Shown one piece after another: positions 3,278-63,797 of a stretch of DNA of 63,797 nucleotides (positions are counted from its first letter, which is position 1; each line of letters starts with the position of its first letter). This DNA comes from Acidovorax sp. (GTDB taxonomy: Bacteria > Pseudomonadota > Gammaproteobacteria > Burkholderiales > Burkholderiaceae_C): positions 1-63,797 of the forward strand of contig NZ_JADHVT010000009.1 in assembly GCF_016783915.1 (NCBI RefSeq), read 5' to 3'. Position numbers and translations under genes: made by a program. The notes beneath the pieces are model-generated. The model saw nothing but the letters and a program-made list of their open reading frames with translations, searched no databases and was not told where the DNA came from.

Positions 3278-3488
3278 GGGACCTCCAAGTGGGGTGCCTC
3301 CATTGTCTGGAAAGCGAGACTCCCGAGTGGGCTGCATGGTTGTGTGCGCCGTGCGCTGCGTGCAACGCGCGCTGCGCCTACACAGGGTCGCCGTAGTGCC
3401 ACGGTAAAATCACAGATGGGTGTCGGCGCCATCGTGGCTCGGCAGGTTCATGCGCTGGTCGGGCCGCCGCGCGGTTTTTTTGCGACCC

Positions 3489-48207: not shown

Positions 48208-48257
48208 GCCCGGAGTTCCCGTCAGGTTGCCCATGGACACTGTTTGACAATATTTGT

Positions 48258-48340
48258 TGTCGATTCCACTCGAGTTTTGTATTTTTCTCATTGAGTTTTG
48301 TATTTTTTGGGTGCGAAAAAATCGCGTAACTATTTGATTT
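48258..48340. repeat. diverged direct repeat, left copy
   Basis: The block begins TGTCGATTCCACTCGAG and ends CGCGTAACTATTTGATT. A 21-bp internal tandem duplication (GAGTTTTGTATTTTT at 48272 and 48293) makes it longer than the related copy at 54682-54742. It lies 51 bp upstream of the rpoH CIRCE. Confidence 0.6.
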
Positions 48341-49323
48341 TTAAAGGGAAAATTGTTCTTGATGACGTTTCATCAATCTTCCGTGCCTGTTTTTCGGCGG
48401 ATTTCAGGAATCTGGCCCCACCCCTTTGAGCAGCGGGTCGTGCGTTGGTTGGGTCGCAATGCGGCTTAGCCAGCAGTTAAAAGCACATTGTTTGCAAGTG
48501 TGTGCTAACTATTTCTGCCTGATCAGTAGGAAGAAGTTGGTGAGATATTCGCCCCTATCAATGTGGGCCTAAGAACTGGGAGCAGCGGCGCCCCTCCAAT
48601 CGGTCGCGTAGGTGAGGTCATCCCCGCAAAGGCATCTGCATGATGCCCTAGTGAGGCTGCAGGACGTTCCCTGGTCGAATAGGTCCCTATCCTGGAGTCG
48701 TTGCTCCCACCCACCTAGCAGTCACCATGGTACTGAGTAGCACCTGGTGCATCCGTCCCGGGTACAGCGCGCCCCTCAAACGCCTTTCTGCCTCTTTGCG
48801 TGCCCGGTTTATTTGCGGGTACGTACCACAGGCGTGTGCATGGCGTGGATCCTTGGAACCTGTCCATGTTCCGCCCCCCCCGGGGGGTGCAGGCTCAAGA
48901 AGACGCTCAGCGCTAAAAGCCCCGGCAGTGGATGGCTCTAGATGACGATCTGGAACGTTGGCCCGACTCCTGTCGGCAAAACCAGGTCGCATGCGATGGA
49001 ACTACAGGCTTGTCCAACCCCGATGCCCAACCAGACCTGAGGGAGAAGTTGAGCTGCTGCTATGTAGCGGTGTCGCGCAACCCTCCGTAGGTCTTTGAAG
49101 CAGGCAGCTGGAGGGGACCGGGGCCAGGTGTCCATCGGCACACTGCTGCCTGTGGCTTCGCCTCAGCCAAAGGCAGTTTTGTAGCAATTGCCACCACCGA
49201 TATCGGATTGACGAACTGACGCTATGAGGCGCACAGCGGCCTTTGCCCGACGCTGGTCCGATAGAAATGGCATTGCCTGCGATACCTTGGGGCTGTTACC
49301 AGCAGATGCACTGGGCTATACCG
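48341..49323. other. gene-poor stretch of about 1 kb
   Basis: Short open frames here (for example 48523-48714 and 48687-48992) encode sequences with no recognisable family, codon bias unlike neighbours and no good ribosome binding site. The stretch contains a C8-G6 run near 48875 and looks like decayed or inserted DNA, continuing into an etfA remnant. Confidence 0.5.
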
Positions 49324-49557
49324 GAGCGGCGCGGCCAGTTCTGGCTCAACGGAGAACAGATCAGCGTCCAACTCATAGTCGGCTGTGCTGAAGATCGGCG
49401 CCTCTGGGGCCTTGTTGATCGCTACGATCACTTTGGAGTCCTTCATGCCTGCCAAGTGCTGGATCGCACCCGAGTTACCGGCCATCACAAATAGCCAGGA
49501 CACCACGATCTTGCCCGTCTCACACCAGTGAGACGGCGTTGCACCCGGATTTACAGC
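49324..49557 (-). pseudogene. etfA: etfA C-terminal remnant
   Basis: Residues 8-85 of the minus-strand frame ending at 49222 match the C-terminal part of electron transfer flavoprotein alpha: [40 protein letters not shown] and [11 protein letters not shown], the FAD-binding end of EtfA. The upstream two-thirds of EtfA and its partner EtfB are absent, key glycine positions are changed (MAGNSGAIQ instead of AIGISGAIQ), and the frame runs on into unrelated sequence after the normal C terminus. It is a decayed fragment of a duplicated etfA. Confidence 0.8.
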
Positions 49558-49710
49558 CGAACTGCAAACTATTGTCAAACGCGGGGTTTGGCCGCGTCAC
49601 CGCCCATCTCACCCGGTCAAGCAGCACCTGCGTCGCTATAGTTCATGGCAACCTGCGAAATGGCAGGAACCTGTTTGCCCTGATACCGTATCAACCCGAG
49701 GAGATGCGTC

Positions 49711-50529
49711 ATGAGCAGCGTTTTGAAGCGAAACAATGTCAAAGTTCTGGGCGATGAAGGCCCTGTGCTCATGTACGCGCACGGCTTTGGGTGCAATCAA
49801 GATATGTGGGGCTTGATGACACCTGCGTTCAGAGCTACGCACCGCCAAGTGCTGTTCGACTATGTGGGCAGCGGCGGCTCGGACCGCGCGGCGTTTGACC
49901 GGCTGCGGTATGCCGATCTTCGGGGCTACGCGCTGGATGTCCTGGAAGTGTGCGATGCCCTTGGCCTCAGCGAGGGGGTGACCTTTGTAGGCCATTCCGT
50001 CAGCTGCAGCATCGGCATGCTCGCATCCATCGAGCGGCCTTCGCTGTTTGACCGGCTGATTTTGCTGGGCCCGTCTCCATGCTTTCTGAATGACCCGCCC
50101 GGCTACGCGGGGGGCTTCGAGCGTGACGACCTGGAAGGTCTGCTGGCGCTGGTGGATCAGAACTACATGGGATGGGCCAACTACCTGGCGCCGGTGGTTG
50201 CGGGGAATGCAGGAGCCGGCGACGTCACCAGCACGCTGACAAACAGTTTTTGTTCGACGGACCCGGTAGTTGCAAAGGTGTTCGCCAGGGCCACATTCTT
50301 CGCGGACAACCGGGCTGACCTTGCCAAAGTCTCGCGGCCATCACTGCTATTGCAACACCGCAGCGATACTTTGGCACCCCTTTCCGTCGGGGAGTATCTG
50401 CATGCACATCTGCCGGACAGCACACTGCAAGTGCTCGACGTTGCCGGCCATTGCGCGCATATGAGCAACCCAGCCCTCGTGATCAATGCCATGCGTGACT
50501 ACCTTGATCACGCTTGCGTCGTCGCCTGA
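49711..50529 (+). CDS. RsbQ/KAI2-like alpha/beta hydrolase
   Basis: The 272-residue protein matches the RsbQ/KAI2/D14 family in length and in its catalytic triad Ser96 (VGHSVSCS), Asp219 (RSDTLAP) and His247 (GHCAHMS), the residue numbers I recall for B. subtilis RsbQ. The N terminus MSSVLKRNNVKVLG is typical, with FGCNQDMWGLM for the oxyanion region. RsbQ activates the PAS-domain phosphatase RsbP through a hydrophobic ligand. Here the gene is followed after 20 bp by a PAS-GGDEF-EAL protein, so the target may be c-di-GMP turnover. GAGGAG precedes ATG 49711. Confidence 0.92.
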   Translation: MSSVLKRNNVKVLGDEGPVLMYAHGFGCNQDMWGLMTPAFRATHRQVLFDYVGSGGSDRAAFDRLRYADLRGYALDVLEVCDALGLSEGVTFVGHSVSCSIGMLASIERPSLFDRLILLGPSPCFLNDPPGYAGGFERDDLEGLLALVDQNYMGWANYLAPVVAGNAGAGDVTSTLTNSFCSTDPVVAKVFARATFFADNRADLAKVSRPSLLLQHRSDTLAPLSVGEYLHAHLPDSTLQVLDVAGHCAHMSNPALVINAMRDYLDHACVVA

Positions 50530-50549
50530 AGCAATCGCAGGCCGCTTCC

Positions 50550-53500
50550 ATGAGTCTTCTGGACCAATTGCCCTGCGCGGTGGTCGTCACGAACGAAGCG
50601 GGTCGCCTTCTGGACGTCAACGCGGCACTTCTCGCGCTTGCAGGAGGGGCACGAAAGGATCGCATCGGGGCGTTGTTCGATGAACTGCTGCCGCCAGCCA
50701 GCAGAATCTTCTTGCAGACCCATATCTGGCCCACCTTGCTTCGGGACGGGCAGGTCAGCGAAATCCATCTTCAAGTCAGCGGTTGCGACACAAACCGCGT
50801 GCCTGTGCTGCTCAATAGTCGCCGGGGGGAATACCAGGGTGCTCCCGCCTATTTTTGGAGCCTTGTTTCCACGCACGAGCGCCACCGCTTCGAGGCTGAA
50901 CTCATTGAACAGCGCAACCTGGCAGAGTCGGCGGGCCTGGCGCTCGGCGAAAGCCAGCGCTTTATTCGCGCCATCACTGACGCGATCCCAAGCATGGTGG
51001 CTTACTGGGGCAAGGATCTTCGCTGCCGCTTCGCCAACCATGCCTACGCGCAATGGTTCGGCAGGCACCCGCACGAGTTGATCGGCATGTCACGCGAAGA
51101 GCTGCTGGGCGAACGCATCGTTGAATGGAACGAGGAATACGCCCATGCGGCGCTCGCGGGACACGAACAGAATTTCGAACGTGCAGTGACCAATGTAGAT
51201 GGAAGTCGCCGCCACGTCCTGGCGCACTACGTCCCCGATATCGCAGGCAGCGAGGTACTTGGCTTCTTCGTCAATGTCAGTGACGTTACGGCACTCAAGA
51301 CAACGCAGTTGGCACTGGAAGAAGCCCAGAGGCTCGGCCAAACGGGCAGCTGGAGCTGGCAAGTCGAGGGAGATGTGGTCACTTGGTCCCCACAGATGTA
51401 CTCGATTCTCGGCTGCGACCCGCAGGCTCCAGCCCCCAGTTTTGAAGAGCAATCTCGCATATACCAGCAGGAAGACTACGCCAAGCTCGCTGAGCGGGTA
51501 CTCAATGCGCTGCGCACTGGCGAGGACTACATCCTGGATCTGCGCTACTGGCGACCCGATGGCCGCCCAGGCTGGGTGGAGGCGCGCGGCGAAGCTGTGC
51601 GCGAGGCGTCAGGGAGCATCGGTGGCCTGCGCGGTACGATTCAGGAAACCACGCAGCGGCGAGAGCAAGAGCTGGCACTAGTGGTTGCGCAGGGTCGGCT
51701 GCAGGCGATGTACGAGACCACGCCTGCCATGCTGCACTCGATTGATGCCCAAGGCCGACTTCTGCACGTGAGCGATGCGTGGCTTGCTTGCCTTGGATAC
51801 CGTCGGGACAACGTCATTGGCAGACTGTCTTCAGACTTCCTCACCGAAGAATCCCGTAGACGCGCCAAAGAGGAAGTACTTCCGGGCTTTTTCGCGACGG
51901 GCCGATGTGACGCAGTGCCCTACCAAATGATCACGAGCAGCGGAGAAATCATCGACGTGCTGCTCTCAGCAATTCTGGAGCGAGACGCACAAGGCCAGCC
52001 AGCGCGCAGTCTGGCCGTCTTCGAGGATGTGACGCTTCGCAGGCGCGCAGAACGCGAGCTCCAGAGGGAGCATGAGCGTTTGCGCAATCTGATAGAGGGT
52101 ACCAATGCAGGCACCTGGGAATGGAACGTCCGAACCGGCGAGGTGATCGTCAACCCTCGCTGGGCGGAGATCATCGGCTGGACCATCGAAGAACTGGGGG
52201 TCATAACGAATCAGTACCGCGCGGATATCGCCCACCCGGACGAACTGCCCCAGACTCAGCAGCTGCTGCGAGAGCATTTCGCAGGGCGCAGCGATGCCTA
52301 CGTGTCCGAACTGCGCTTGCGCCATCGGGACGGCTCCTGGATTTGGGTCGAAGACCGAGGGCGTCTCATCACACGCACAGCCGACGGCAGGCCCGAGTGG
52401 GTGTTCGGTATCCACATCGACATTTCAGAGAGAAAACGCCGTGACGATGCCATGCTGCGGCTCAGCGCCGAACTGGCGCAGCAGCATGAACTGATGAGGG
52501 TCACACTCCAGTCGATTGGAGACGCCGTCATCACCACGAATGCCGATGGGCTGGTCAGCTGGCTCAATCCGGTGGCCGAGCGAATGACTGGGTGGCTGTC
52601 TTCGGAGTCGATCGGACGCCCCTTGCCGCAGGTATTTCACATCATCAATGAAGAAACGCGCGAGCTCGCACCAGACCCGGTTGCAGCGTGCCTGGCCGAA
52701 GGCAGGACGGTAGGCCTGGCACCCAAAACCATGCTCATAGCGCGAGACGGCACTGAATACGGAATCCAGGACTCTGCGGCGCCGATACGCGGCCCACAGG
52801 GCGAAATGCTAGGCGTCGTTCTCGTCTTCCATGATGTCAGTGAGCAGCGTAGGCTCAGTGGCGAGATGACATATCGGGCCACGCACGATTCGCTGACAGG
52901 TCTTGTGAACCGCGCGGAATTCGAGTCGCGATTGCTCAGAACGCTGCGCCATGCTGAGGAAAACGACAGCAGCCATGCGCTGTTTTACATTGATCTGGAC
53001 CAGTTCAAAGTGGTGAATGACGCGTGCGGTCACGCCATCGGTGATCAGTTGTTGCAGCAGGTCAGCAAGCTGCTGGCGGAATCGATCCGAGCGCGCGACA
53101 CCCTTGCACGCCTGGGGGGTGACGAATTTGCCATCATTCTTGAAAACTGCACCATGGAGCAGGCTAGTCGGGTTGCCCAGAAGATCTGCGATCGCATGAA
53201 TGATTTTCGGTTCGTTCATGGGGAGAGACGTTTCCGCATCGGTACCAGCATTGGCCTCGTTCCGCTGGACAAGCGGTGGGCCAATGCATCCGTTGTACAA
53301 CAGGCCGCCGATGCATCGTGCTATGCAGCCAAAGAGGCGGGTAGAAATCGCGTCCACGCCTGGTTTGAGACTGACGTCACCATGCGCGAAAGAAATCATG
53401 AAATGCAGTGGACAACCCGGATTCAGCACGCGCTGGACAACGATTGCTTTGTGCTGTTTGCGCAGCGCATCCATTGCCTAAAAAAACAACCACCGGGCAT

Positions 53501-54182
53501 TCACGCCGAGGTTTTGCTGCGCCTGAGAAACGATGATGGATCGTTGGTGCAGCCCGGAGTGTTCCTTCCTGCAGCCGAACGCTTTCATCTGGCGTCGCGC
53601 ATTGACCGCTGGGTTCTACAAAACGCGGTCCGGTGGCTGCAAGGCTTGGAGGAGCCCGAGGCCATCGACAGCCTCAGCGTCAACCTCTCGGGCCAGTCCG
53701 TGGGCGACAGGGCCTTTCATGCATGGGCACTCGAATTATTTTCTGCATCAGGTGCAACGGCATGTTCCAGGCTTTGCCTCGAAATCACCGAAACGGCAGC
53801 TGTCACTAACCTTGCGGACGCGGCAATCTTCATCGGCCATGTTCGTTCAGCTGGAGTGAAAGTCGCGCTTGACGACTTCGGTGCTGGCGCATCGTCGTTC
53901 GGGTATCTCAAAGCCCTGCCCGTTGACTACCTCAAGATCGACGGGCAGTTCATTCGAACTCTCCTCAGCAATCCCCTGGACGAAGCGGCGGTTCGCTGCT
54001 TCGCCGATGTCGCGAGACTGATGGGATTGGAAACAGTGGCTGAATTTGTTGAAAGCCCAGAAGTGCTGGAGCGCCTGAAGGAGATGGGGGTGGACTACGC
54101 GCAGGGATACCTAGAGCACCGTCCCGAGCCCATCAACCGCTTGACAGAGATGGCGACCAGGGCCGGGGCGACTGCCTTGTAA
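50550..54182 (+). CDS. multi-PAS diguanylate cyclase/phosphodiesterase, RsbQ partner candidate
   Basis: The protein of about 1210 residues has six PAS-like domains (approximately residues 1-115, 130-250, 255-375, 380-500, 505-635, 645-765), a GGDEF domain with intact RLGGDEFAII near residue 856, and an EAL domain in which the motif reads AEVLLR near residue 984. The EAL glutamate and DDFGAG, ITET and KIDGQF residues are present, while AEGVE appears as AEFVE. The first PAS (PTLLRDGQVSEIHLQV then VPVLLNSRRG) resembles the PAS of RsbP. ATG 50550 is preferred over TTG 50514, which would overlap the hydrolase. Confidence 0.88.
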   Translation: MSLLDQLPCAVVVTNEAGRLLDVNAALLALAGGARKDRIGALFDELLPPASRIFLQTHIWPTLLRDGQVSEIHLQVSGCDTNRVPVLLNSRRGEYQGAPAYFWSLVSTHERHRFEAELIEQRNLAESAGLALGESQRFIRAITDAIPSMVAYWGKDLRCRFANHAYAQWFGRHPHELIGMSREELLGERIVEWNEEYAHAALAGHEQNFERAVTNVDGSRRHVLAHYVPDIAGSEVLGFFVNVSDVTALKTTQLALEEAQRLGQTGSWSWQVEGDVVTWSPQMYSILGCDPQAPAPSFEEQSRIYQQEDYAKLAERVLNALRTGEDYILDLRYWRPDGRPGWVEARGEAVREASGSIGGLRGTIQETTQRREQELALVVAQGRLQAMYETTPAMLHSIDAQGRLLHVSDAWLACLGYRRDNVIGRLSSDFLTEESRRRAKEEVLPGFFATGRCDAVPYQMITSSGEIIDVLLSAILERDAQGQPARSLAVFEDVTLRRRAERELQREHERLRNLIEGTNAGTWEWNVRTGEVIVNPRWAEIIGWTIEELGVITNQYRADIAHPDELPQTQQLLREHFAGRSDAYVSELRLRHRDGSWIWVEDRGRLITRTADGRPEWVFGIHIDISERKRRDDAMLRLSAELAQQHELMRVTLQSIGDAVITTNADGLVSWLNPVAERMTGWLSSESIGRPLPQVFHIINEETRELAPDPVAACLAEGRTVGLAPKTMLIARDGTEYGIQDSAAPIRGPQGEMLGVVLVFHDVSEQRRLSGEMTYRATHDSLTGLVNRAEFESRLLRTLRHAEENDSSHALFYIDLDQFKVVNDACGHAIGDQLLQQVSKLLAESIRARDTLARLGGDEFAIILENCTMEQASRVAQKICDRMNDFRFVHGERRFRIGTSIGLVPLDKRWANASVVQQAADASCYAAKEAGRNRVHAWFETDVTMRERNHEMQWTTRIQHALDNDCFVLFAQRIHCLKKQPPGIHAEVLLRLRNDDGSLVQPGVFLPAAERFHLASRIDRWVLQNAVRWLQGLEEPEAIDSLSVNLSGQSVGDRAFHAWALELFSASGATACSRLCLEITETAAVTNLADAAIFIGHVRSAGVKVALDDFGAGASSFGYLKALPVDYLKIDGQFIRTLLSNPLDEAAVRCFADVARLMGLETVAEFVESPEVLERLKEMGVDYAQGYLEHRPEPINRLTEMATRAGATAL

Positions 54183-55123
54183 GGCATCCATCGCCCAACC
54201 GCCACAAGCCCGTGGACAGCGACCAGCGCTTAGCCGCCAATGCGGGGATGACGATTGATGCAAAACGCCCCCAGGCACCCCATATATCCCGCACAGAGCG
54301 CGGGCGGATTCTTCTTTAACCTAGTCGCCCCTGTCAGATCTTGCTCTGAGAGACTCGTGCTGACTCGAAGATCAATGCTGCTCTCTTCATGAGAAGACTT
54401 CTGCCGACGACGGGATAAGCGACTGCTTTCAGCCTGTAGCCGCCGCTTGGCCAAAACGCTGTTCTTTGCGTCAAGCGTTTAAGTGCGGCCCTGAGTAGAA
54501 AGATCCTGAGCTGATGGCGCGCCAAGCAGCCCGGCTGGAAAAAATACAAGACTCAGTGAGAAACGCCCGGGAAAGTGCAACACTGAAGGAATAAAAAGTA
54601 CAAAGGTAGGCCCCCCGTGTTGTTCCAAGTCGTTGATTTCTCGAGTTCGGCAGTACAACACCCAGCGCATATCGACATGTGTGTCGATTCCACCCGGGTT
54701 TTGAATTTATTGGGTACGGCAATGTCGCGTAACTATTTGATTCACTTCCATATTCCGGCAATCGGCAATGACAGCGTCCGGTTCAAGAAGGTATCTGCAC
54801 CGCAACCACCACAGACCCCCAAGAGGTAGAAGAAAGCCAAGAACTTATCCACCACGTGAGCATCCAGCTCACGAACCAGGGTGGGTCAGATCGAGATGGA
54901 AATGGTGGGTTGCGGTTGCATGCAAATCAACAACCCGCGCTAGCAGCGCCAGCGCCTTGATCGGTCTGCATGGTGCACAACAGGTGCGTTTAGAAATTCA
55001 ACAGCTTCTGTCCCGCAAAATCCTAGGCGCCATGGGTCGTCATTTGTTCAACCCCTGTCATCCCATGAACTCAAGTGGGCACCCCCGGTCATCGCCCTAC
55101 ACGGTGATTGGCGCAATAGGGAC
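54183..55123. other. gene-poor stretch of about 940 bp
   Basis: No frame here has a recognisable product. A minus-strand frame at 54230-54454 and another at 54471-54761 have no family match, no ribosome binding site and unusual residue content. The stretch contains the second copy of the diverged direct repeat and lies between the PAS-GGDEF-EAL gene and the 3' end of the hybrid kinase gene. Confidence 0.5.
54682..54742. repeat. diverged direct repeat, right copy
   Basis: The block begins TGTCGATTCCACCCGGG and ends CGCGTAACTATTTGATT, in the same orientation as the copy at 48258-48340. It lacks the 21-bp internal duplication. The two copies bracket the etfA remnant, hydrolase and PAS-GGDEF-EAL gene. 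Confidence 0.6.
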
Positions 55124-58100
55124 CTATTTTGCTTTGGTAGGACCTACCAAATCCAAACCGCCAATGCCGCCACTGAGAATAGAAACAGCCTGGTCGAACT
55201 CGAGGTTCTCCACATGTCCTTGGAGGCGCTGAAAGGTCAGTGCGTCGAACAAGGGCCGCAGCAAAGGCGCCAGCTTCTCGAACAAGTCCAGCCCGCTCAG
55301 GTTGGCATCCTGCAGCGCACGCATGAGTTCGACAACGCGCTGTGGGTCTAGCGGCGGCGCGCCAGCTTTCATCAGTAGCGGCTCCGCCGGCACCCGCAGC
55401 CAGTCGGCCGAGGCAGCCCGCACTTGCTCGGTTGCCTCGGCGAGCCGGGCGAGCAGGGGCGCTACCGCTTCGGTCTGATCCTGACGGCAGGCTACCTCCA
55501 CCTGCCCCGCCAGAGCGGCGATCTCCTTGGCCCCCAGCGTGGCCGCGCTGCCCTTGAGCTTGTGCATCAGTGCCGCCATTGCCTGGCGCTGCTCGGGCGC
55601 CGTTGCCGGTGCGTCCAGGCATTCCTCGCACAGCGCGAGCATGCGTTGCAGCATGCTGCGCAACAGCTTCACGTCGCCCGCCAGGCGCCGGCTTGAATCC
55701 TCGGCATCGATGCCCTTGATCTGCGGCCAGCCCTGGGAGTCGCTCGCCACCTGGGCGACTACGGGGCCGACGGGCGCGCGGCCGATCAGCCGTCGCACGC
55801 CCTGCACCAGCAGCTCCGGGTCAATAGGCTTGGACAGGATGTCCTGCATCCCAGCTTCGCGTGCGCGGCGGTGTTCGCTGTCGGTATTGCCCGCGGTCAG
55901 CGCCACGACGGGTAGCCCGGCACGCTCGGGCAAGGCGCGGATGCGGCGCGTCGCCTCCAGCCCGTCCATGACGGGCATCTGCACGTCCATCAGTACGATA
56001 TCGAAGTCAGCGCGCTCCTCCACCCAGCGCAACGCCTCGGCGCCGTCGCGTGCGGGCTGCACCAGAGCGCCTTCGAGCTCCAGCAAACGCCCAGCGACCT
56101 GCAGGTTGATGTCGCTGTCGTCCACCAGCAGCACGCGCACTCCCTGAAGGCGCGGGCCGTCGATACCAACTTGCGCTGCACTCGCGAACTCAGCGGCGTC
56201 GCCCAACTCGAAAGGCAACTCCACCCAGAAACAGCTGCCCTGGCCCGGCGTGCTGTGCACGCCTATCTGTCCGCCCATCAACTCGACCAGGTGCTTGGTG
56301 ATCGACAGGCCCAGCCCCGTGCCGCCAAAGCGTCGCGTGGTGGACGCATCGGCTTGCGAGAAGGGAGCGAAAAGCCTGGGTAGCACATCCGCGGCGATGC
56401 CCACGCCGGTGTCTCGCACCTCAAAGCGTAAGCGGCACTGGCCGACCGGCGCCACCAGCGCCTGGACGCTCAGTGCGACCTGACCGTGTGCGGTGAATTT
56501 GATCGCATTGCCCAACAGGTTGACCAGGATCTGGCGCAGCCGTGTGGGGTCGCCCAGCAAGGCATCCGGCAGCGTGGCATCAGGGGTCACTGCCAGGGCC
56601 AGGCCCTTGTTGCGGGCATGCTCCTCGAAGACCGCCTGCAGGGACGAGCTCACGTCGCGCAGGCTGAAGGTCGTGCGCTCCAGTCCCATCTCGCCAGCCT
56701 CGATCTTGGACAGGTCCAGCACATCGTTGACGATGCCCAGCAGCGCCTTGCCCGACAGCAGGATGTTCTGAACATAGGGCGCCTGCTCGGTGCTCAGCAG
56801 CGTGCGCTGTAGCAGGTGTGCCAGCCCAATCACCGCGTTCAGCGGCGTGCGGATCTCGTGACTCATGTTGGCCAGGAAGGCACTCTTGGCTTCGCTGGCG
56901 GCCTCAGCCGCAGCCGTTGCCGCGCGCAGCAGGTCGTCTGTTCGGCGTTGCTCGCTGATGTCCTGAAAGGCCCCGACCAGTTGCACCGGCTTGCTGTGGG
57001 CGTCCAATTCCACCTCGCCCATTGACCGTACCCAAACCGTTCGTCCGGTATAGGTGATCAGGCGCAACTCCAGGTCCCAGCCTTGGCCGCTGGCGATCGC
57101 CCGGTTCACGGCATCGGTGATCACCGGGCGGCTCTCAGGCGCGTAGAAGTTGATGGCTGTGTCCAGCGTCGGCTCGAAGTCGGCCGGCACTTCGTGGATG
57201 GCGCGCGTCTGCTCGCTCCAGTGCAACTGGCCAGCCCGAAGGTCAACACGCCAGCCGCCCACCAGAGCCATGCCGCCGACGCTCCGCAGCAGGCTTTCAT
57301 TGGCCTGCAGCGCGGCTTCGGCTCGCAGCCTTTCGGTCACGTCGAAGTTGACGCCGATCATGCGCAGCGGTCGACCGTCGGCGTCCCGCACGACACGGGC
57401 CATGGCCTTCAGATATCTCTCCTCACCGTCGAGACGAATCACGCGGAACTGGAGCTCGAAGTCGGCACGCCCGTCGATGGCGTCCTGCAGTGCCTTCTCG
57501 CTGCTGGCCCTGTCTTCGGGGTGAACGCTGTCGCTCCACAGCGTGTAGGGCTCGCGCCCGCCCGAGCGATGGCGCCCGTACAACGCATACATCTGGTCAT
57601 CCCAGACCAGGGTACGGGCGACAACGTCGTAGTCCCACACGCCGATGCCTGCGGCGCCGGCTGCCAGCTCGAAGCGCTCGTTGCTGCGCTGGACTTCCTG
57701 CGCGAGGTGCTTCTGCGCCGTGATGTCGGTGCGGATCGACACGTACTTCCGAATCGAGCCGTCTGCGTCCTTCACGGGCACCATCACCGCGTAGGTCCAG
57801 TACACGCTGCCATTCTTTGCGACGCCACCGATCTCACCTTGCCAGGCCCGGCCGGCGCGCAACGCAGGCCAGATCTCGCTGTTGAAGTCGCCCGATCCGA
57901 GCTGGGGCTGGTGCACGGCGTAGGTCTGCCCGAGCAGCTCCTCACGCGAGAACCCGGTGAGCTGGCAGACGTTGTCGTTGACCGTGATGAAGCGACCGTC
58001 CGGGCCCATTTCGGAGAAGATGGCGTAATTCTGGATCGCCACCAGCAAGGCCTCGTTCTCGCGCAGTGCGGCTGCCAGTTGCAGGCGGCCCTCGTTCAGC

Positions 58101-58912
58101 TCGGTGACGTCATGAACGATGACGTAGAAGCCCTTTACCTCGTCACCCTGGTGGTCGGGCAGGTAATGGGCCAGCGAGTGGCGCAGACCCTGCCCGTTTG
58201 GACGCGGAATAGAGCGCTCGAAGGTCTGCTTCTCACCGCGCAGCGCGGCCTCGACGAACGGGCGGTTGGCCTCGAACAGCGCCGGGCCCAGCAGGTCGCG
58301 CATATTGCGCCCGGGTAGGGTGCCTGGATCGACACCGAACCAAGTGTGGTAGGCCTGATTGGCGACGCGGTTGTCGAGGTTTCGGTCCCAGTAGCCGATC
58401 ATCGAGGGCACAGCGTCGAGCACGGTGCGAAGGTCTCGGCGGGTGGCTTCCAGCGCCGCCTGGCGGTCCTGCAGGGACTGGATCATGGCGTCGAAGCTTT
58501 GAGAAAGCGAGCCGAACTCATCCCGCGCCAGGTAGGCGCTGCGGGCCTGCAGATCGCCGGCCTCAATGCGGCGCGCTGTGTCTTGCAGCGTGCGCATCGG
58601 CCGCAGGACGCGCCGCATCACCACGGCCACCAAACCTGACAGCAGCGCGGCCAGCGAAGCATTCGCGACCAACGTCGCGATGCGCAGCCGGCGCTGTTGT
58701 TGGCTACGCATTTCGATCAGTCGGCCCGCCAGGTCGAAGGCCCCGTCGCTGATGCGGCGCGTTTCAGCCACCAGGTGGTCGGACAGCATCTGTCGCCGCC
58801 CGCCATCGGAATCGGCGGCGCCCGCTCCGGCCGACGATTCAAGTGCAGCAAAGAGGGGCGGCAGGCCTTCGCTCACGCCCACCAAATCGTCGATGTCGTC
58901 CTTAAGGCCCAA
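55124..58912 (-). CDS. hybrid sensor histidine kinase (main part of a frameshifted gene)
   Basis: The frame encodes about 1260 residues: the end of a periplasmic region, a helix (IATLVANASLAALLSGLVAVV), HAMP (RRIEAGDLQARSA), four PAS domains (about residues 155-280, 285-410, 415-540, 545-665), HisKA with H685 (NMSHEIRTPLNAVIG), HATPase (GGTGLGLSITKHLVELMGG), a receiver with D976 (VLMDVQMPVMDG), and an Hpt domain with H1117 (MHKLKGSAATLG). It lacks a proper N terminus: the missing first helix is encoded in another frame at 58902-59180. The periplasmic binding-protein gene upstream probably supplies the sensor. Confidence 0.88.
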   Translation of the reverse strand: MGLKDDIDDLVGVSEGLPPLFAALESSAGAGAADSDGGRRQMLSDHLVAETRRISDGAFDLAGRLIEMRSQQQRRLRIATLVANASLAALLSGLVAVVMRRVLRPMRTLQDTARRIEAGDLQARSAYLARDEFGSLSQSFDAMIQSLQDRQAALEATRRDLRTVLDAVPSMIGYWDRNLDNRVANQAYHTWFGVDPGTLPGRNMRDLLGPALFEANRPFVEAALRGEKQTFERSIPRPNGQGLRHSLAHYLPDHQGDEVKGFYVIVHDVTELNEGRLQLAAALRENEALLVAIQNYAIFSEMGPDGRFITVNDNVCQLTGFSREELLGQTYAVHQPQLGSGDFNSEIWPALRAGRAWQGEIGGVAKNGSVYWTYAVMVPVKDADGSIRKYVSIRTDITAQKHLAQEVQRSNERFELAAGAAGIGVWDYDVVARTLVWDDQMYALYGRHRSGGREPYTLWSDSVHPEDRASSEKALQDAIDGRADFELQFRVIRLDGEERYLKAMARVVRDADGRPLRMIGVNFDVTERLRAEAALQANESLLRSVGGMALVGGWRVDLRAGQLHWSEQTRAIHEVPADFEPTLDTAINFYAPESRPVITDAVNRAIASGQGWDLELRLITYTGRTVWVRSMGEVELDAHSKPVQLVGAFQDISEQRRTDDLLRAATAAAEAASEAKSAFLANMSHEIRTPLNAVIGLAHLLQRTLLSTEQAPYVQNILLSGKALLGIVNDVLDLSKIEAGEMGLERTTFSLRDVSSSLQAVFEEHARNKGLALAVTPDATLPDALLGDPTRLRQILVNLLGNAIKFTAHGQVALSVQALVAPVGQCRLRFEVRDTGVGIAADVLPRLFAPFSQADASTTRRFGGTGLGLSITKHLVELMGGQIGVHSTPGQGSCFWVELPFELGDAAEFASAAQVGIDGPRLQGVRVLLVDDSDINLQVAGRLLELEGALVQPARDGAEALRWVEERADFDIVLMDVQMPVMDGLEATRRIRALPERAGLPVVALTAGNTDSEHRRAREAGMQDILSKPIDPELLVQGVRRLIGRAPVGPVVAQVASDSQGWPQIKGIDAEDSSRRLAGDVKLLRSMLQRMLALCEECLDAPATAPEQRQAMAALMHKLKGSAATLGAKEIAALAGQVEVACRQDQTEAVAPLLARLAEATEQVRAASADWLRVPAEPLLMKAGAPPLDPQRVVELMRALQDANLSGLDLFEKLAPLLRPLFDALTFQRLQGHVENLEFDQAVSILSGGIGGLDLVGPTKAK

Positions 58913-59180
58913 TACGGGGCACGTCGAGTACGTGCAGGGTCTGGGTCAGCTCGGTGTGCACGGCATGCCACTGCCGCCGCGCCCGTGCATGTCCGTGCAG
59001 CAGATAGTCCTGCGTCAGAACCAGCAGACCGGCAGCGTCGCGCGAGACCCTGCCGACTTCCAGCTGCACGGTATCGATGCGTTCGTGCTGCCGTTCCAGC
59101 AACTCGGCGGCGACTTGATGCATGACCACCAGCACGAAGGCCAGTGTCATGCCCCACAACATCAGACGGCGGACTTGCAA
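58902..59180 (-). pseudogene. displaced N terminus of the hybrid kinase
   Basis: This frame encodes MQVRRLMLWGMTLAFVLVVM and the first 90 residues of a periplasmic segment (ERQHERIDTVQLEVGRVSRD), then stops at TAA 58902. The remaining kinase continues in a different frame beginning LGLKDDIDD, so an extra base near 58905-58915 (or a two-base loss) has broken the gene. It starts eight bases after the stop of the binding-protein gene. It could be a sequencing error. Confidence 0.7.
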
Positions 59181-59187
59181 GCTCGGC

Positions 59188-60192
59188 TCACTTGATAAGG
59201 TTCACCGCGCGTGGGGCGAGCTTCTTCAGCGGTTCGGTGCGCACCAGGTCCAGGTAGTCGGGTACCTCGCCCGCCGGCACCAGCCGTCTGCGCAGCGCCC
59301 AGCGGGCCTCGGCCTCCAGCGTGGTGATCAGTGACTGCGACAGCTGCAACCTGAACTCGAAGCCGTCCCAGGTCTTTGACAGGTCCTCCACAGAAACCTT
59401 GAGCGCCTTGGCCACGATGGCACGGGCGCGCTCGGGTTCGCGCTGCAGCAGGACCGTGGCGCGCTGCACGGCCCGCAGCAGCTTGATGGCATCATCGTCG
59501 CTGACACCCTGGCTGGCTGGGCGGCTGACAATGTTGAAGGTAACGCTGAAGAACGCAGGGCCGGGCATCACCCTGGCCTGCGGCCCCAGCCGATGCAGCG
59601 CCTCCGTGACATGGGTGCTGAACAGCGCCGCTGCATCCACCTCGCCACGCGCGAGGGGGCCGACAGGGTCCTTGGGCTCCAGGGGCTGCTCCGTCACGTT
59701 GTCGAGCTTCACCCCGTGGAAGAGCATGAAGGTGTCGGCAAAGTAGTGGCTGCTGGTGCCTGGGAGGACTCCCAGCCGCTTGCCCTGCAGGTCGGTGGGT
59801 TGAGTGATGCTGCGGTCGGTGCGCACCACGATCTGGTTCTCGCGCCCTGACACGGTGGTGGTGGCCAGGATGCCGAAGTCGCGCCGGGTGAAGCCGGCCA
59901 GCATGATGGGCGTGTCGGCCACGGTGGCGAAGTGCGCCTCGCCGGCCAGCAGCGCTTCCAGGCAGATCCGCCCGACCGGGTAGTGCTTGATGTTCAGGGC
60001 CAGGCCCTCGGCCGCGAAGTATCCCTCGGCCTCAGCAATGAGCACCGGGGCCGAGTAGGGGATGTTGGCCACTGCCAGCGTCAGCGTCGCAGCCCGGCTG
60101 GCACCGGCGAACAGCGTCAGTCCCACCCAGCACACCGCAAACCAGAACCTGTGCGGTCCTCTTCCCTGACTCAGTCGATTTGAAGTTCGCAA
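59188..60192 (-). CDS. NMT1/SsuA-like periplasmic binding protein of a sensory system
   Basis: The 334-residue protein has a signal peptide (FWFAVCWVGLTLFAGASRA) and the type II periplasmic fold of NMT1/THI5/SsuA proteins, with YFAAEGLALNIKHYPVGR and TDLQGKRLGVLPGTSSHYFAD. AAGGAG lies eight bases before the TTG start at 60192. No ABC permease or ATPase genes are nearby; it is immediately upstream of the hybrid kinase gene, so it is more likely a ligand-sensing partner than a transport receptor. Confidence 0.85.
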   Translation of the reverse strand: MRTSNRLSQGRGPHRFWFAVCWVGLTLFAGASRAATLTLAVANIPYSAPVLIAEAEGYFAAEGLALNIKHYPVGRICLEALLAGEAHFATVADTPIMLAGFTRRDFGILATTTVSGRENQIVVRTDRSITQPTDLQGKRLGVLPGTSSHYFADTFMLFHGVKLDNVTEQPLEPKDPVGPLARGEVDAAALFSTHVTEALHRLGPQARVMPGPAFFSVTFNIVSRPASQGVSDDDAIKLLRAVQRATVLLQREPERARAIVAKALKVSVEDLSKTWDGFEFRLQLSQSLITTLEAEARWALRRRLVPAGEVPDYLDLVRTEPLKKLAPRAVNLIK

Positions 60193-60632
60193 AGCCTCTG
60201 CTCCTTGTGAACGTTTATGGTCGGGCTCCTGCGCCCGGCCCGCGCCGCAGTGGCCTTAAAACTGCACCTGTTCGGACCTGCCTGTAGAGGCACGCCGCCG
60301 TCTGCCGAGTCTGCCGCGCCTGACGTATCACCGTCGGCGGATCACCATCGACCCGCACAGTGTCCGTGAACGCCGACACATCGACTGGCACTACGCACTA
60401 GATTACGCCAAAGGCGCAGGCGCTGGAGAATTTCTTGTCGACCTGGCTGCTTCTCGTTCTCGTATAGCGCTTGACCTGCGCCAGTGTGGGAAGCCCGCTC
60501 TGGGGCACAACGATGCCGCGCAGGCCGGACTCTACTAAGTGGCCGCAATAGACCGCGGCCAAGCCCGCCTGCATGCATGCATGCATGCAGGCTGGCAGAA
60601 CAATCCAACGCGGAGGTCTCTGTCCGATATCT
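60193..60632. other. intergenic stretch with a 26-bp palindrome
   Basis: This 440-bp stretch separates the binding-protein gene (5' end at 60192) from the 3' end of the receiver-GGDEF gene. No convincing reading frame is present. It should hold the promoter of the sensory operon; I see no clear -35/-10 pair. The palindrome at 60567 is its main feature. Confidence 0.5.
60567..60592. repeat. 26-bp perfect palindrome of TGCA units
   Basis: GCC followed by five TGCA units and GGC forms a perfect 26-bp palindrome. It lies 40 bp past the end of the receiver-GGDEF gene and may act as a terminator hairpin, a cruciform or a protein site. Confidence 0.7.
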
Positions 60633-61631
60633 TCATGAATGGCGCGCCGGGGAATCGAGAGTCGCGTGCAGGCGTTCGCCTGATTGCGGTGAGACGGACT
60701 CCGGCGGCGGTTCGATCGTCCGTGCCCTGGCCCTGCCATGCTGTTTGGCAAGGTACAGCGCACGGTCGGCGCGTCGCATCAGGTCGGCGCTGTCTGGCTC
60801 CCCAGCGGCTGCGTTGCCTTGCTGCTCCCACGATTCTTCCGAAGAGGCAACACCAATGCGGACCGAGACAATGCCGTCTGCGACTCCCCCCTCATGGGGC
60901 AAGTGAAGCTCGAGTACGGCCTGGAGCAGGCGCTCAGCTACGAGACAGCCACCGTCCCGGGTGGTGTTGGGCAGCAGCACGGCGAACTTTTCGCCGCTGT
61001 ACCGGGCTACCATCTCCGTTGGGCGCAATAAGGCTCCACGGAGCGCCTGCGCGACGTCATTCAAGCACGTGTCGCCGGCCGGATGGCCGTAACGCTCGTT
61101 ATAGGCCTTGAAGTGGTCGACATCCACCATGAGGCAGCACAGCGGCTGTGTGTCCCGCAGCGAGCACGCCCATTCCCGCGCCAACGCCGCGTCGAACGCG
61201 CGGCGGTTGGGCAGCTCGGTCAGCGCATCGGTGTTGGCCATGCGGCGCAATTCATCAGACAGCTGCTTGAGACGCGAGTGGGCGGTAACACGCGCGCGCA
61301 GGATGTGTTCGCTCACAGGCTTGTGGATGAAGTCGGCAGCGCCCACGCTGAAGCCCAGCATTTCATGATCGAGGTCGGTGTGTGATGTCACGAAGATCAC
61401 TGGCACGTCGCTCAAGTCCGGTGCGGCCTTGAGCGCGACGCAGGTGTCAAAGCCGTTCATGCCGGGCATCTCGGCGTCCAGCAGGATCAGGTCGGGGCGC
61501 TCCGCATGCGCCTGCCGCAGCGCGGCCTCGCCGCTGGTGGCAAAGCGTATGCGCCCCAGATCACCCAGTAGCCGACCCATCAGATGAATCAGCGTCGGGT
61601 CGTCGTCAACCAGCAGCAGCGAAGGACGCAT
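60633..61631 (-). CDS. receiver-GGDEF response regulator with degenerate active site
   Basis: The 332-residue protein has an N-terminal receiver domain (LLLVDDDPTLIHLM, phosphoacceptor D52 in LILLDAEMPG, K in FIHKPVSE) and a C-terminal GGDEF domain. The signature reads RYSGEKFAVLL at residues 212-216, with serine replacing the first glycine and lysine replacing the catalytic second acid, so cyclase activity is doubtful. It may instead bind GTP or partners. ATG 61631 (MRPSLLLVDD) gives a standard receiver start. It is next to the hybrid kinase system and is a plausible phosphorelay output. Confidence 0.88.
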   Translation of the reverse strand: MRPSLLLVDDDPTLIHLMGRLLGDLGRIRFATSGEAALRQAHAERPDLILLDAEMPGMNGFDTCVALKAAPDLSDVPVIFVTSHTDLDHEMLGFSVGAADFIHKPVSEHILRARVTAHSRLKQLSDELRRMANTDALTELPNRRAFDAALAREWACSLRDTQPLCCLMVDVDHFKAYNERYGHPAGDTCLNDVAQALRGALLRPTEMVARYSGEKFAVLLPNTTRDGGCLVAERLLQAVLELHLPHEGGVADGIVSVRIGVASSEESWEQQGNAAAGEPDSADLMRRADRALYLAKQHGRARARTIEPPPESVSPQSGERLHATLDSPARHS

Positions 61632-62161
61632 GGATGTCTGAACTCCATCTTGATCGGTTTTGCCGGGCTCGGCCACTGCATATGCCACGCACCAGGCTCT
61701 TCGCCGCTGCCATGCTCTCCACCCGGCGGCCGGTTGTTTACACGATAGCTTATTCACTTCGCCATCCGCAAGGACTGTTTACCCTTTCAGACAGCCGAGC
61801 GAACCCATGCCCCGAGATCAGTGGCGCTTGACCCACCGGCTGTTGGCGCCAGCGTCAAACTGACCATCCGCGCCGATCTGGCATTGACCATCGGTTGCCT
61901 GCTGCAAATGGCGTGGTGGTGATTGTTCAAAGCCGTCCTGAGCGGTCACGCCGCAGTCGGCACATGTGTACAGATCTGGTCAGACCGGTGCCCGCTGCAA
62001 CATTCATGAGACACCTCCACGGTTTCCACCAAGAGATATCGACGTCCTGGACCCAGCACTTGAATCCTGCCTTTTCCCCTGTTGCTTGCTGCTTGCCGCC
62101 CGTTGCCCGTTGCCCGTTGCCCGTTGCACGATGGGCAGAGCGGTGACGGCATCAACCCGCG
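61632..62161. other. intergenic stretch with a tandem repeat
   Basis: The 530-bp stretch upstream of the receiver-GGDEF gene and downstream of the PAS-GGDEF-EAL gene has no convincing gene. It contains four tandem CCCGTTG units at 62099-62126. Confidence 0.55.
62099..62126. repeat. (CCCGTTG)4 tandem repeat
   Basis: Four exact 7-bp units are preceded by degenerate units (CCCTGTTGCTTGCTGC). A heptamer array is prone to slippage. It lies 36 bp after the stop codon of the flanking gene, outside any reading frame I accept. Confidence 0.85.
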
Positions 62162-63797
62162 CTAGATGCCCTGCCGCACCTGGCTTTCAAAGTCTTCCAG
62201 CGTCAGCGGGCGGCCAAACAGGTAGCCCTGGAAGGCCCGGCAGCCATGGGCCAGCAGAAACTGGTGGTGGGCGGTGGTCTCCACCCCCTCGGCGATCACG
62301 GACAGGCCCAGGCTGCCAGCCAGTGCAATGATGGAGCGGGCGATGGCGGCATCGCTTGCGTCCAGCAGCACGTCGCGCACAAAGCCCTGGTCGATCTTGA
62401 TCTGGTCCAGCGGCAGGCGCTTGAGGTAGCTGAGCGACGAGTAGCCCGTGCCAAAGTCATCCAGCGAAAACCCCAGGCCATGGGCCTTGAGGGCGCTCAT
62501 GGTGGCGATCACGCTGTCCACGTTGTCCAGCAGCAGGCTTTCGGTCAGCTCCAGCTTGATCTGTGCGGGGTTGGCGCCAGTCTGCCGCACCAGTGCCAGC
62601 ACCTGGGCCACAAAGTCGTCTTGCAGAAACTGGCGTGCGCTCACGTTGATGGCCAGGCTCAGGTGTGCAAACAGCGGGTCTTGCTGCCAGCAGGCCTGCT
62701 GGCGCAGGGCGGTTTCCATGACCCAGTGGCCCAGCGGCAGGATGAGGCCCGATTCTTCGGCCAGCGGGATGAACTCCGACGGCGGCACCATGCCCTGGAC
62801 CGGGTGCTGCCAGCGCACCAGGGCCTCGGCGCCGGTCACGCGCCCCTGGCTGTCCACCTGCGGCTGGTACAGCAACAGGAATTGCGCGCGCCGCAGGCCG
62901 TTGTGCAGCTCGGTCTCCAGGAGGGCGCGGCGGTTCACGGCTTGCTGCATGTCGGGGTCAAAAAAGCGCAGCGTGTTGCGCCCGGCGTCCTTGGCACGGT
63001 ACATGGCCATGTCAGCCTGTTTGAGCACCTCGTCCACCGAGTCGCGCTGGTGGTTGAGCAGCGTCACGCCAATGCTGCCTGTGAAGTGGTGCTCGTGCCC
63101 TGCCAGTTCATACGGCTGGCGCAGCTGCGCCAAGATCAGCTCGCCCAGCGTGCGCGCCTGTGCGGCAGCCTCGGGAGCGTCGCTGCTCAGGTTCTGCAGC
63201 ACCACCACAAACTCGTCACCTCCCAATCGGGCCACGGTGTCCTGCTCGCGCACACAACTGCGCAGGCGCCGGGCGACATCCTTGAGCAGCAGGTCGCCCA
63301 CCTCGTGGCCCCGGGTGTCGTTCAAGGTCTTGAAGTTGTCCAGGTCCACAAACAGCACGGCCGTGGTCAGGCCCGATCGGGCGCCGTTGACCAGCACCTG
63401 CTGCAGCCGGTCCACCAGCAGGCGGCGGTTGGGCAGTTGCGTGAGGGCGTCGTAGAAGGCCAGGTAGCGCGCTTCGTCCTCTGCGGCCTTGCGGCCCGAG
63501 ATGTCGATGTCGATGCAGAACATCTCGGGCGGGTGCCCCGGCACCTGGATGTAGGCGTGACTGGAAAACACATGCACCGGCGTGCCGTCCTTGCGCTGCA
63601 GTTGCAGCTCGCCCGCCGGGATCACCTCGCCGGTGGCGAACATGTGCTGCATGTGTGCCCGCACGCCGTCGCGCATGGGCGGCGGGATGATGAGGTTGAG
63701 CAGGTTGCCGCCCAGGGCTTCTTCGGCCGTGTAGCCGTACAGCTGCTCGGACGCCTGGTTCCAGTAGCTAGTGGTGCCGTCCTGCAGGTAGCCTTGC
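62162..63797 (-). CDS. PAS-GGDEF-EAL bifunctional c-di-GMP protein, N terminus outside the window
   Basis: The frame is open to the right edge, so the gene continues beyond it. The visible 545 residues have a PAS domain (starting QGYLQDGTTSYWNQASEQ), a GGDEF domain with intact RLGGDEFVVVL and an EAL domain with intact TGAEALVRW, the ELTES, LDDFGTGYSSL and AEGVET motifs. It can probably both make and degrade c-di-GMP, the EAL side being complete. Its orientation is the same as the adjacent receiver-GGDEF gene. Confidence 0.9.
   Translation of the reverse strand, partial: QGYLQDGTTSYWNQASEQLYGYTAEEALGGNLLNLIIPPPMRDGVRAHMQHMFATGEVIPAGELQLQRKDGTPVHVFSSHAYIQVPGHPPEMFCIDIDISGRKAAEDEARYLAFYDALTQLPNRRLLVDRLQQVLVNGARSGLTTAVLFVDLDNFKTLNDTRGHEVGDLLLKDVARRLRSCVREQDTVARLGGDEFVVVLQNLSSDAPEAAAQARTLGELILAQLRQPYELAGHEHHFTGSIGVTLLNHQRDSVDEVLKQADMAMYRAKDAGRNTLRFFDPDMQQAVNRRALLETELHNGLRRAQFLLLYQPQVDSQGRVTGAEALVRWQHPVQGMVPPSEFIPLAEESGLILPLGHWVMETALRQQACWQQDPLFAHLSLAINVSARQFLQDDFVAQVLALVRQTGANPAQIKLELTESLLLDNVDSVIATMSALKAHGLGFSLDDFGTGYSSLSYLKRLPLDQIKIDQGFVRDVLLDASDAAIARSIIALAGSLGLSVIAEGVETTAHHQFLLAHGCRAFQGYLFGRPLTLEDFESQVRQGI

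Follow-up and report, generated by a model that had tools for sequence, protein, structure and literature searches.

An RsbQ-type hydrolase beside a six-PAS GGDEF-EAL protein in Acidovorax: a probable sensing unit for c-di-GMP turnover

The window examined here is a 63,797-nucleotide stretch of an Acidovorax sp. genome (contig NZ_JADHVT010000009.1). It holds a gene for an RsbQ-type alpha/beta hydrolase followed by a gene for a long protein with PAS, GGDEF and EAL domains. We argue that the two quite probably form an RsbQ-PAS bipartite sensing unit wired to the turnover of cyclic di-GMP (c-di-GMP). The pair belongs to the RsbQ-PAS module published by Nadezhdin, Brody and Price in 2011 (PMC3183031, cited throughout from part of its text), which already includes c-di-GMP, EAL and extra-PAS outputs. 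Against the parts of that text compared, what differs here is the number of PAS domains. A first-pass annotation of this DNA had proposed that RsbQ is paired with an RsbP-like PAS domain and GGDEF/EAL outputs, and adjacency, class residues and co-divergence support this well. The features of the locus are as follows.

49698..49703, forward strand: GAGGAG, likely ribosome-binding site for the hydrolase gene (direct sequence reading)
49711..50529, forward strand: RsbQ-type alpha/beta hydrolase, 272 aa, triad Ser96/Asp219/His247 (open reading frame (ORF), domain scan, structure match 1wom)
50550..54182, forward strand: PAS(x6)-GGDEF-EAL protein, 1210 aa (ORF, domain scans)
50550..50885, forward strand: PAS1, RsbP-type, residues 1-112, no DIT; C9 V12 L47 R52 F54 L55 H58 P61 E71 P85
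50886..50978, forward strand: linker PAS1-PAS2, helical in the AlphaFold2 model of an Acidovorax orthologue
50979..51299, forward strand: PAS2, residues 144-250, DVT at its end (domain scans)
51378..51641, forward strand: PAS3, PAS_3 fold, with ETT (segment scan)
51741..52049, forward strand: PAS4, residues 398-500, DVT at its end (domain scans)
52146..52445, forward strand: PAS5, residues 533-632, DIS at its end (domain scans)
52491..52838, forward strand: PAS6, residues 648-763, DVS at its end (domain scans)
52878..53351, forward strand: GGDEF domain, GGDEF motif at residue 856, RxxD (RARD) ending five residues upstream (domain scan)
53418..54116, forward strand: EAL domain, closest solved relative Pseudomonas aeruginosa PA0861 (RbdA) (domain scan)

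The two genes lie on the same strand with 20 bp between them, and the long protein has 1210 residues with both output domains when it is counted from the ATG at 50550, all as first annotated. A longer reading frame could start at a TTG at 50514. We prefer the ATG because its equivalent is the first start codon in five same-genus orthologues. The N-terminus at that point reads MNLLDQLP in four of the five and MTLLDELP in the other. All six PAS domains were found when the protein was scanned as separate segments. The EAL motifs are intact (EVLLR 987, NLS 1045, EITE 1078, DDFG 1108, LKID 1128, AEFVE 1164, QGY 1185), and we take the GGDEF and EAL motifs to have their catalytic roles in this protein. 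Selection on both genes is purifying. Against the five orthologues, the ratio of nonsynonymous to synonymous substitution rates (dN/dS) is 0.06-0.18 for RsbQ and 0.04-0.29 for eight PAS, GGDEF and EAL segments. No ratio could be defined for one of the 40 segment comparisons, and with the Acidovorax sp. A1169 orthologue dS approaches saturation.

The hydrolase carries Ser96, Asp219 and His247 at the numbers claimed for its triad. Its best solved match is RsbQ of Bacillus subtilis (1wom, E 2.5e-93), to which it is 53% identical. The next solved matches are Oleispira 3qvm, 7ukb (a reconstructed plant ancestor, going by its title) and the plant D14/KAI2 family. The Acidovorax orthologue of locus L085 shares 49% identity with RsbQ and 26-38% with the natural plant receptors listed, and similarity to the D14/KAI2 fold was seen for this orthologue. 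Across 134 aligned RsbQ sequences the Ser is present in 132, the Asp in 134 and the His in 132, and two of the four misses are gaps. A triad residue is altered at L041 (S96L) and L160 (H247N), with the class PAS still adjacent.

The RsbP-PAS class has nine distinguishing residues and no DIT motif (PMC3183031). The first PAS domain here had been said to resemble RsbP, and it does have the class residues and no DIT. At the nine signature positions (those listed above for PAS1 apart from P61) it has the commonest residue eight times and the second commonest once, a Val in place of Leu13. The conserved Pro62 corresponds to P61, again the commonest residue. The scoring used a 119-row alignment made here and the numbering of Bacillus inaquosorum RsbP. 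The counts at the signature positions, in order, are Cys 88, Leu 66 (Val 17), Leu 82, Arg 87, Phe 93, Leu 37, His 70 (Tyr 36), Glu 117 and Pro 90, and position 62 is Pro in 113 of the 119. In RsbP the mutants L48A, F55A, Y59A and E72A are null, and F55A and Y59A lower contact with RsbQ; in B. subtilis that contact requires Phe55, and the triad is needed as well (PMC3183031). The window counterparts of the four null positions are L47, F54, H58 (Tyr in RsbP) and E71. A model of PAS1 has a PAS fold with a predicted local distance difference test score (pLDDT) of 93, and heme PAS domains are among its best fold matches. No second place for the class was found at 1e-12 or better in the genome of the window, among the 15 of 108 first-look candidates scored. 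A coiled coil lies between PAS and output in 36 of the 45 published modules, and the exceptions include those with an extra PAS or EAL (PMC3183031). In the Acidovorax orthologue AlphaFold2 places a helix after PAS1 (387-421 of the joined model described below, pLDDT blocks 57-83).

Adjacency carries most of the argument. RsbQ is found in 43 of the 299 genomes of the family, at 54 places (E<=1e-40). Another 80 loci, the best 80 of 584, came from a scan of named genomes. A script went through the resulting 134, and at 119 of them the downstream gene has a first PAS that fits the class profile. The other 15 comprise five with the PAS adjacent in another arrangement (other frame in L034 and L074, upstream in L142 and L147, divergent in L148), two cut by a contig end and eight without a PAS. 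Counting distinct loci with full context, an RsbP-type PAS is adjacent at 119 of 127. The first-pass annotation had held that conserved adjacency across genera would support its claim, and this is what we find. The paired loci carry phylum labels of Pseudomonadota, Bacillota, Bacteroidota, Acidobacteriota, Gemmatimonadota, Cyanobacteriota and Actinomycetota. Many of these records are metagenome bins, and one locus (L150) has a stop inside the PAS frame. In a second set of 53 loci, some repeating the first (L182 lies on the contig of L085), the class PAS is adjacent in 45 by script and in 46 after inspection of L205. The reciprocal search gives the same picture. A 19-row PAS1 profile was run on the 299 family genomes, and 42 of the 45 class PAS places (E<=1e-20) directly adjoin RsbQ; at L166, one of the other three, a short remnant of RsbQ lies upstream. 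Of the 12 places that score between 1e-20 and 1e-12, 11 do not adjoin RsbQ, which makes the edge of the class fairly sharp. RsbQ itself is patchy, being present in 18 of 47 genomes of the genus (E<=1e-30), 17 of 399 of the order and 20 of 398 of the phylum (E<=1e-50 for the phylum).

The outputs of the 119 distinct loci are histidine kinase in 62, GGDEF in 26, GGDEF-EAL in 16, PPM in 10 and other in 5. Twelve of these labels were set by hand, and L115, L122, L135 and L153 were called kinases on resemblance and not from a scan. Parsimony on the best quick RsbQ tree requires 24 changes of output type, against 57 with shuffled labels. This tree used five labels including "other" and left out L063, L102 and L107, and its supported branches alone force fewer changes. 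Some loci depart from these types. In two Paenibacillus loci (L137, L140) RsbQ adjoins a protein of 157-163 aa in which PAS was seen and none of the output domains searched for. In a Bacillus locus (L148:5723-11131) RsbQ is divergent from a PAS-PPM gene, and CheW-like and CheA-like ORFs, named by eye, follow. A REC-GGDEF gene comes directly after the module in five of the 62 kinase-type loci (L060, L065, L066, L067, L076), and three lack the room to tell. This is a possible second route to c-di-GMP.

RsbQ evolves together with PAS1 and not with the GGDEF or HATPase outputs, the EAL set excepted. The distance correlation between RsbQ and PAS1 is 0.60 over 113 pairs. These omit duplicates of identical RsbQ, L063 (a broken RsbQ) and any PAS outside the scripted downstream ORF, L034, L074, L142, L147 and L148 among them. 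The partial Mantel correlation of RsbQ with PAS1 is 0.69 given GGDEF (n=36) and 0.51 given HATPase (n=43). With PAS1 given, RsbQ correlates with GGDEF at 0.06 and with HATPase at 0.03.

A candidate contact comes from covariation. The pair RsbQ Tyr152-PAS Phe54 ranks second in the 113 pairs, after V257-W103; in a set of 151 (L182 and L193 left out) it leads all 207 x 113 column pairs. Phe54 is the counterpart of a known RsbQ-contact residue of RsbP. The signal is clearly above a full shuffle, which ignores ancestry. The 38 added pairs are looser (Y-F 23, H-Y 6, F-F 2, Y-L 2, Y-Y 2, H-F 1, F-V 1, L-L 1). When only supported branches are counted, tree-independent pairs number 2-4 in the first set and 3-4 in the larger one; with all branches there are 5 and 9. 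There is no significance on the tree, where a sign test is unable to reach 0.05 because the independent changes are too few. We keep the covariation as a lead only.

One locus joins the partners in a single chain. At L205:1681-3426 a 582-codon ORF encodes RsbQ, the class PAS and GGDEF, and it is the one fusion among 222 RsbQ-bearing ORFs of at least 250 aa (overlapping loci included). Matches turned up in 7 of the 13 genomes of its genus and in 25 of 147 of its family, and every other one that spans both parts holds at least one internal stop. The fusion could therefore reflect loss of a stop codon or a mistake in sequencing. We also modelled RsbQ and PAS1 of L085 as one read-through chain (AlphaFold2, 16 rows), with a predicted template modelling score (pTM) of 0.66, a mean pLDDT of 83 and weak residues at 151-190. 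A 2025 eLife paper that cites the 2011 module presents an AlphaFold2 model of 2RsbP/2RsbQ with RsbQ between the PAS domains and linkers. A dimer may be needed for modelling the complex.

Several points weigh against a dedicated RsbQ-PAS unit. Eight of the 127 distinct loci have no PAS partner, and their RsbQ are all at most 47% identical to that of the window. The count of 119 is partly circular, because 107 of these neighbours went into the class profile and 12 bits, a low threshold, sufficed for a hit. In the second set 7 of the 53 lack an adjacent class PAS. L192, one of these, is cut by a contig end and another, L229, is broken and weak, but partnerless L185, L223 and L207 have RsbQ matches of 388, 284 and 260 bits. 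Conversely, the class PAS proteins L165 and L167 have no RsbQ match next door. In the EAL set (n=13), which is closest to the window protein, RsbQ follows EAL (0.32) as much as PAS1 (0.31). Finally, the placement of PAS on RsbQ in the joined model is not supported because its pTM is 0.66.

The mechanism we propose for the RsbQ-PAS unit is as follows. RsbQ would bind or hydrolyse a small molecule and make contact with the F-alpha helix of PAS1 (Phe54/His58) in the protein next door. From there the change would travel down the helical linker and past five more PAS domains, which probably bring other inputs, to the GGDEF-EAL part. The best solved match of that part is RbdA (PA0861, 1e-119), a PAS-GGDEF-EAL phosphodiesterase of P. 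aeruginosa, with the comparison limited to GGDEF-EAL. RbdA is reported to be a phosphodiesterase raised by GTP, with one study finding no significant GTP effect (PMC10294637; further passages in PMC10874727). Given this closest solved relative and its reported activity, the output is most likely mainly phosphodiesterase; we infer the direction of the effect on c-di-GMP in the same way.

One of the nearest known systems is RsbQ-RsbP in the energy-stress sigma B branch of B. subtilis. The hydrolases align at the triad, and gene order and PAS1 class residues agree. The window protein differs in having GGDEF-EAL instead of the PPM phosphatase, and five extra PAS domains. The 2011 paper lists 45 cases of RsbQ next to an RsbP-PAS, with a phosphatase, a kinase or a diguanylate cyclase as the output (PMC3183031). 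Its cyclase modules share with the window an upstream RsbQ, an N-terminal RsbP-PAS and a GGDEF output, and three of them have EAL. Psychromonas ingrahamii A1SX34 combines one extra PAS with GGDEF-EAL. In the part of the text compared there are one or two additional PAS domains, versus six PAS in the window protein. That paper terms the cue of the module mysterious. Among the papers listed by our literature searches, which took in few subscription journals, there was neither a ligand of RsbQ nor a study of the window pair.

What RsbQ and PAS1 each do can be argued in several ways. Coincidental neighbours, an ordinary esterase that merely lies beside an independent PAS-GGDEF-EAL enzyme, can be rejected. 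The eight distinct loci where a more distant RsbQ-like hydrolase has no PAS, and the seven in the second set, are what one would cite for it. However, RsbQ has the class PAS beside it at 119 of 127 loci, the class PAS has RsbQ beside it at 42 of 45 places, and RsbQ diverges in step with PAS1 and not with GGDEF or HATPase outputs, which makes this reading extremely improbable. Model 1 of Nadezhdin et al. makes RsbQ an enzyme that passes its product to PAS1, with PAS1 as the sensor (PMC3183031). We consider this a serious contender that falls somewhat short of an even chance. A nearly universal triad suits it, as does a confident PAS fold with heme PAS domains among its best matches. The alterations at L041 and L160 count against it since the PAS partner is kept there, though they could be sequencing errors. 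The heme-ligand position corresponds to RsbP C56, where C56A has a mild effect (PMC3183031), and the window has Leu there. The D14/KAI2 fold and triad bring in another reading. KAI2/D14 receptors carry the same Ser-Asp-His triad, so the triad does not separate an enzyme from a receptor.

In Model 2 (PMC3183031) RsbQ is the receptor and pocket occupancy alters its grip on PAS1, as KAI2/D14 do with their partners. We put this close to an even chance. The Y152-F54 covariation would fit, but its independent changes are too few for significance, and at best it points to a contact and does not tell which of the two is the sensor. RsbQ is not known to have a ligand, and its partner is a PAS domain, unlike those of the plant butenolide receptors. 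A butenolide or other strigolactone- or karrikin-like plant signal seems very unlikely as the ligand. The first-pass annotation had suggested a KAI2/D14-like receptor, perhaps for a butenolide or other small hydrophobic ligand, and what stands behind this is that the hydrolase fold and triad are common to D14/KAI2. A review also raises the possibility that KAI2 came from bacterial RsbQ through horizontal transfer. On the other hand, the window RsbQ and L085 are closer to B. subtilis RsbQ than L085 is to plant receptors, by the identities given above. The module also occurs in Alteromonas, Colwellia and Pseudoalteromonas, which are marine genera, and in Bacillota and Bacteroidota, so a common ligand made only by plants is disfavoured. 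A bolder form of the receptor model is doubtful but worth stating. RsbQ could be a receptor of the KAI2/D14 kind whose ligand is a small hydrophobic metabolite of wide occurrence; its Tyr152 and Thr183 would press on PAS Phe54 and set c-di-GMP directly, and the receptor part would have been plugged repeatedly into different outputs. If the receptor model were true it would tie the way plants perceive hormones to a sensor that is widespread in bacteria. The covariation offers one specific contact for mutation, and with a c-di-GMP output a search for the ligand could conveniently be followed through motility or biofilm.

The module sits in a variable segment of the genome, because 13.7-13.9 kb is absent from two same-genus genomes. 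In these (G262 and G699) about 1.2 kb between the flanks replaces the window from 48.25 kb to 62.0-62.1 kb, and G699 has another RsbQ elsewhere. The segment and other parts of the window hold the following.

48249-62140: the 13.7-13.9 kb segment, with the RsbQ-PAS module, hybrid kinase, NMT1-type protein and REC-GGDEF protein
55124-58912, reverse strand: PAS hybrid kinase (domain scan)
59188-60192, reverse strand: NMT1-type binding protein (domain scan)
60633-61757, reverse strand: REC-GGDEF protein (domain scan)
62162-63676, reverse strand: another GGDEF-EAL protein (domain scan)
3418-3471: nhaA-I riboswitch-type RNA match, 50.6 bits

An Rfam search gave no match at the hydrolase/PAS-protein locus, and a transfer RNA search of the window found none. 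In G722, G718, G701, G688 and G725 the close orthologues are likewise of the long GGDEF-EAL type, at 1207-1246 aa. Elsewhere in the genus the partner is a PAS-GGDEF-EAL protein of lesser length, a PAS-GGDEF protein or a kinase, and no partner was seen at L185 and L192. G722 has a second RsbQ copy (L181:2005-3631) whose partner is shortened, with only two PAS domains found.
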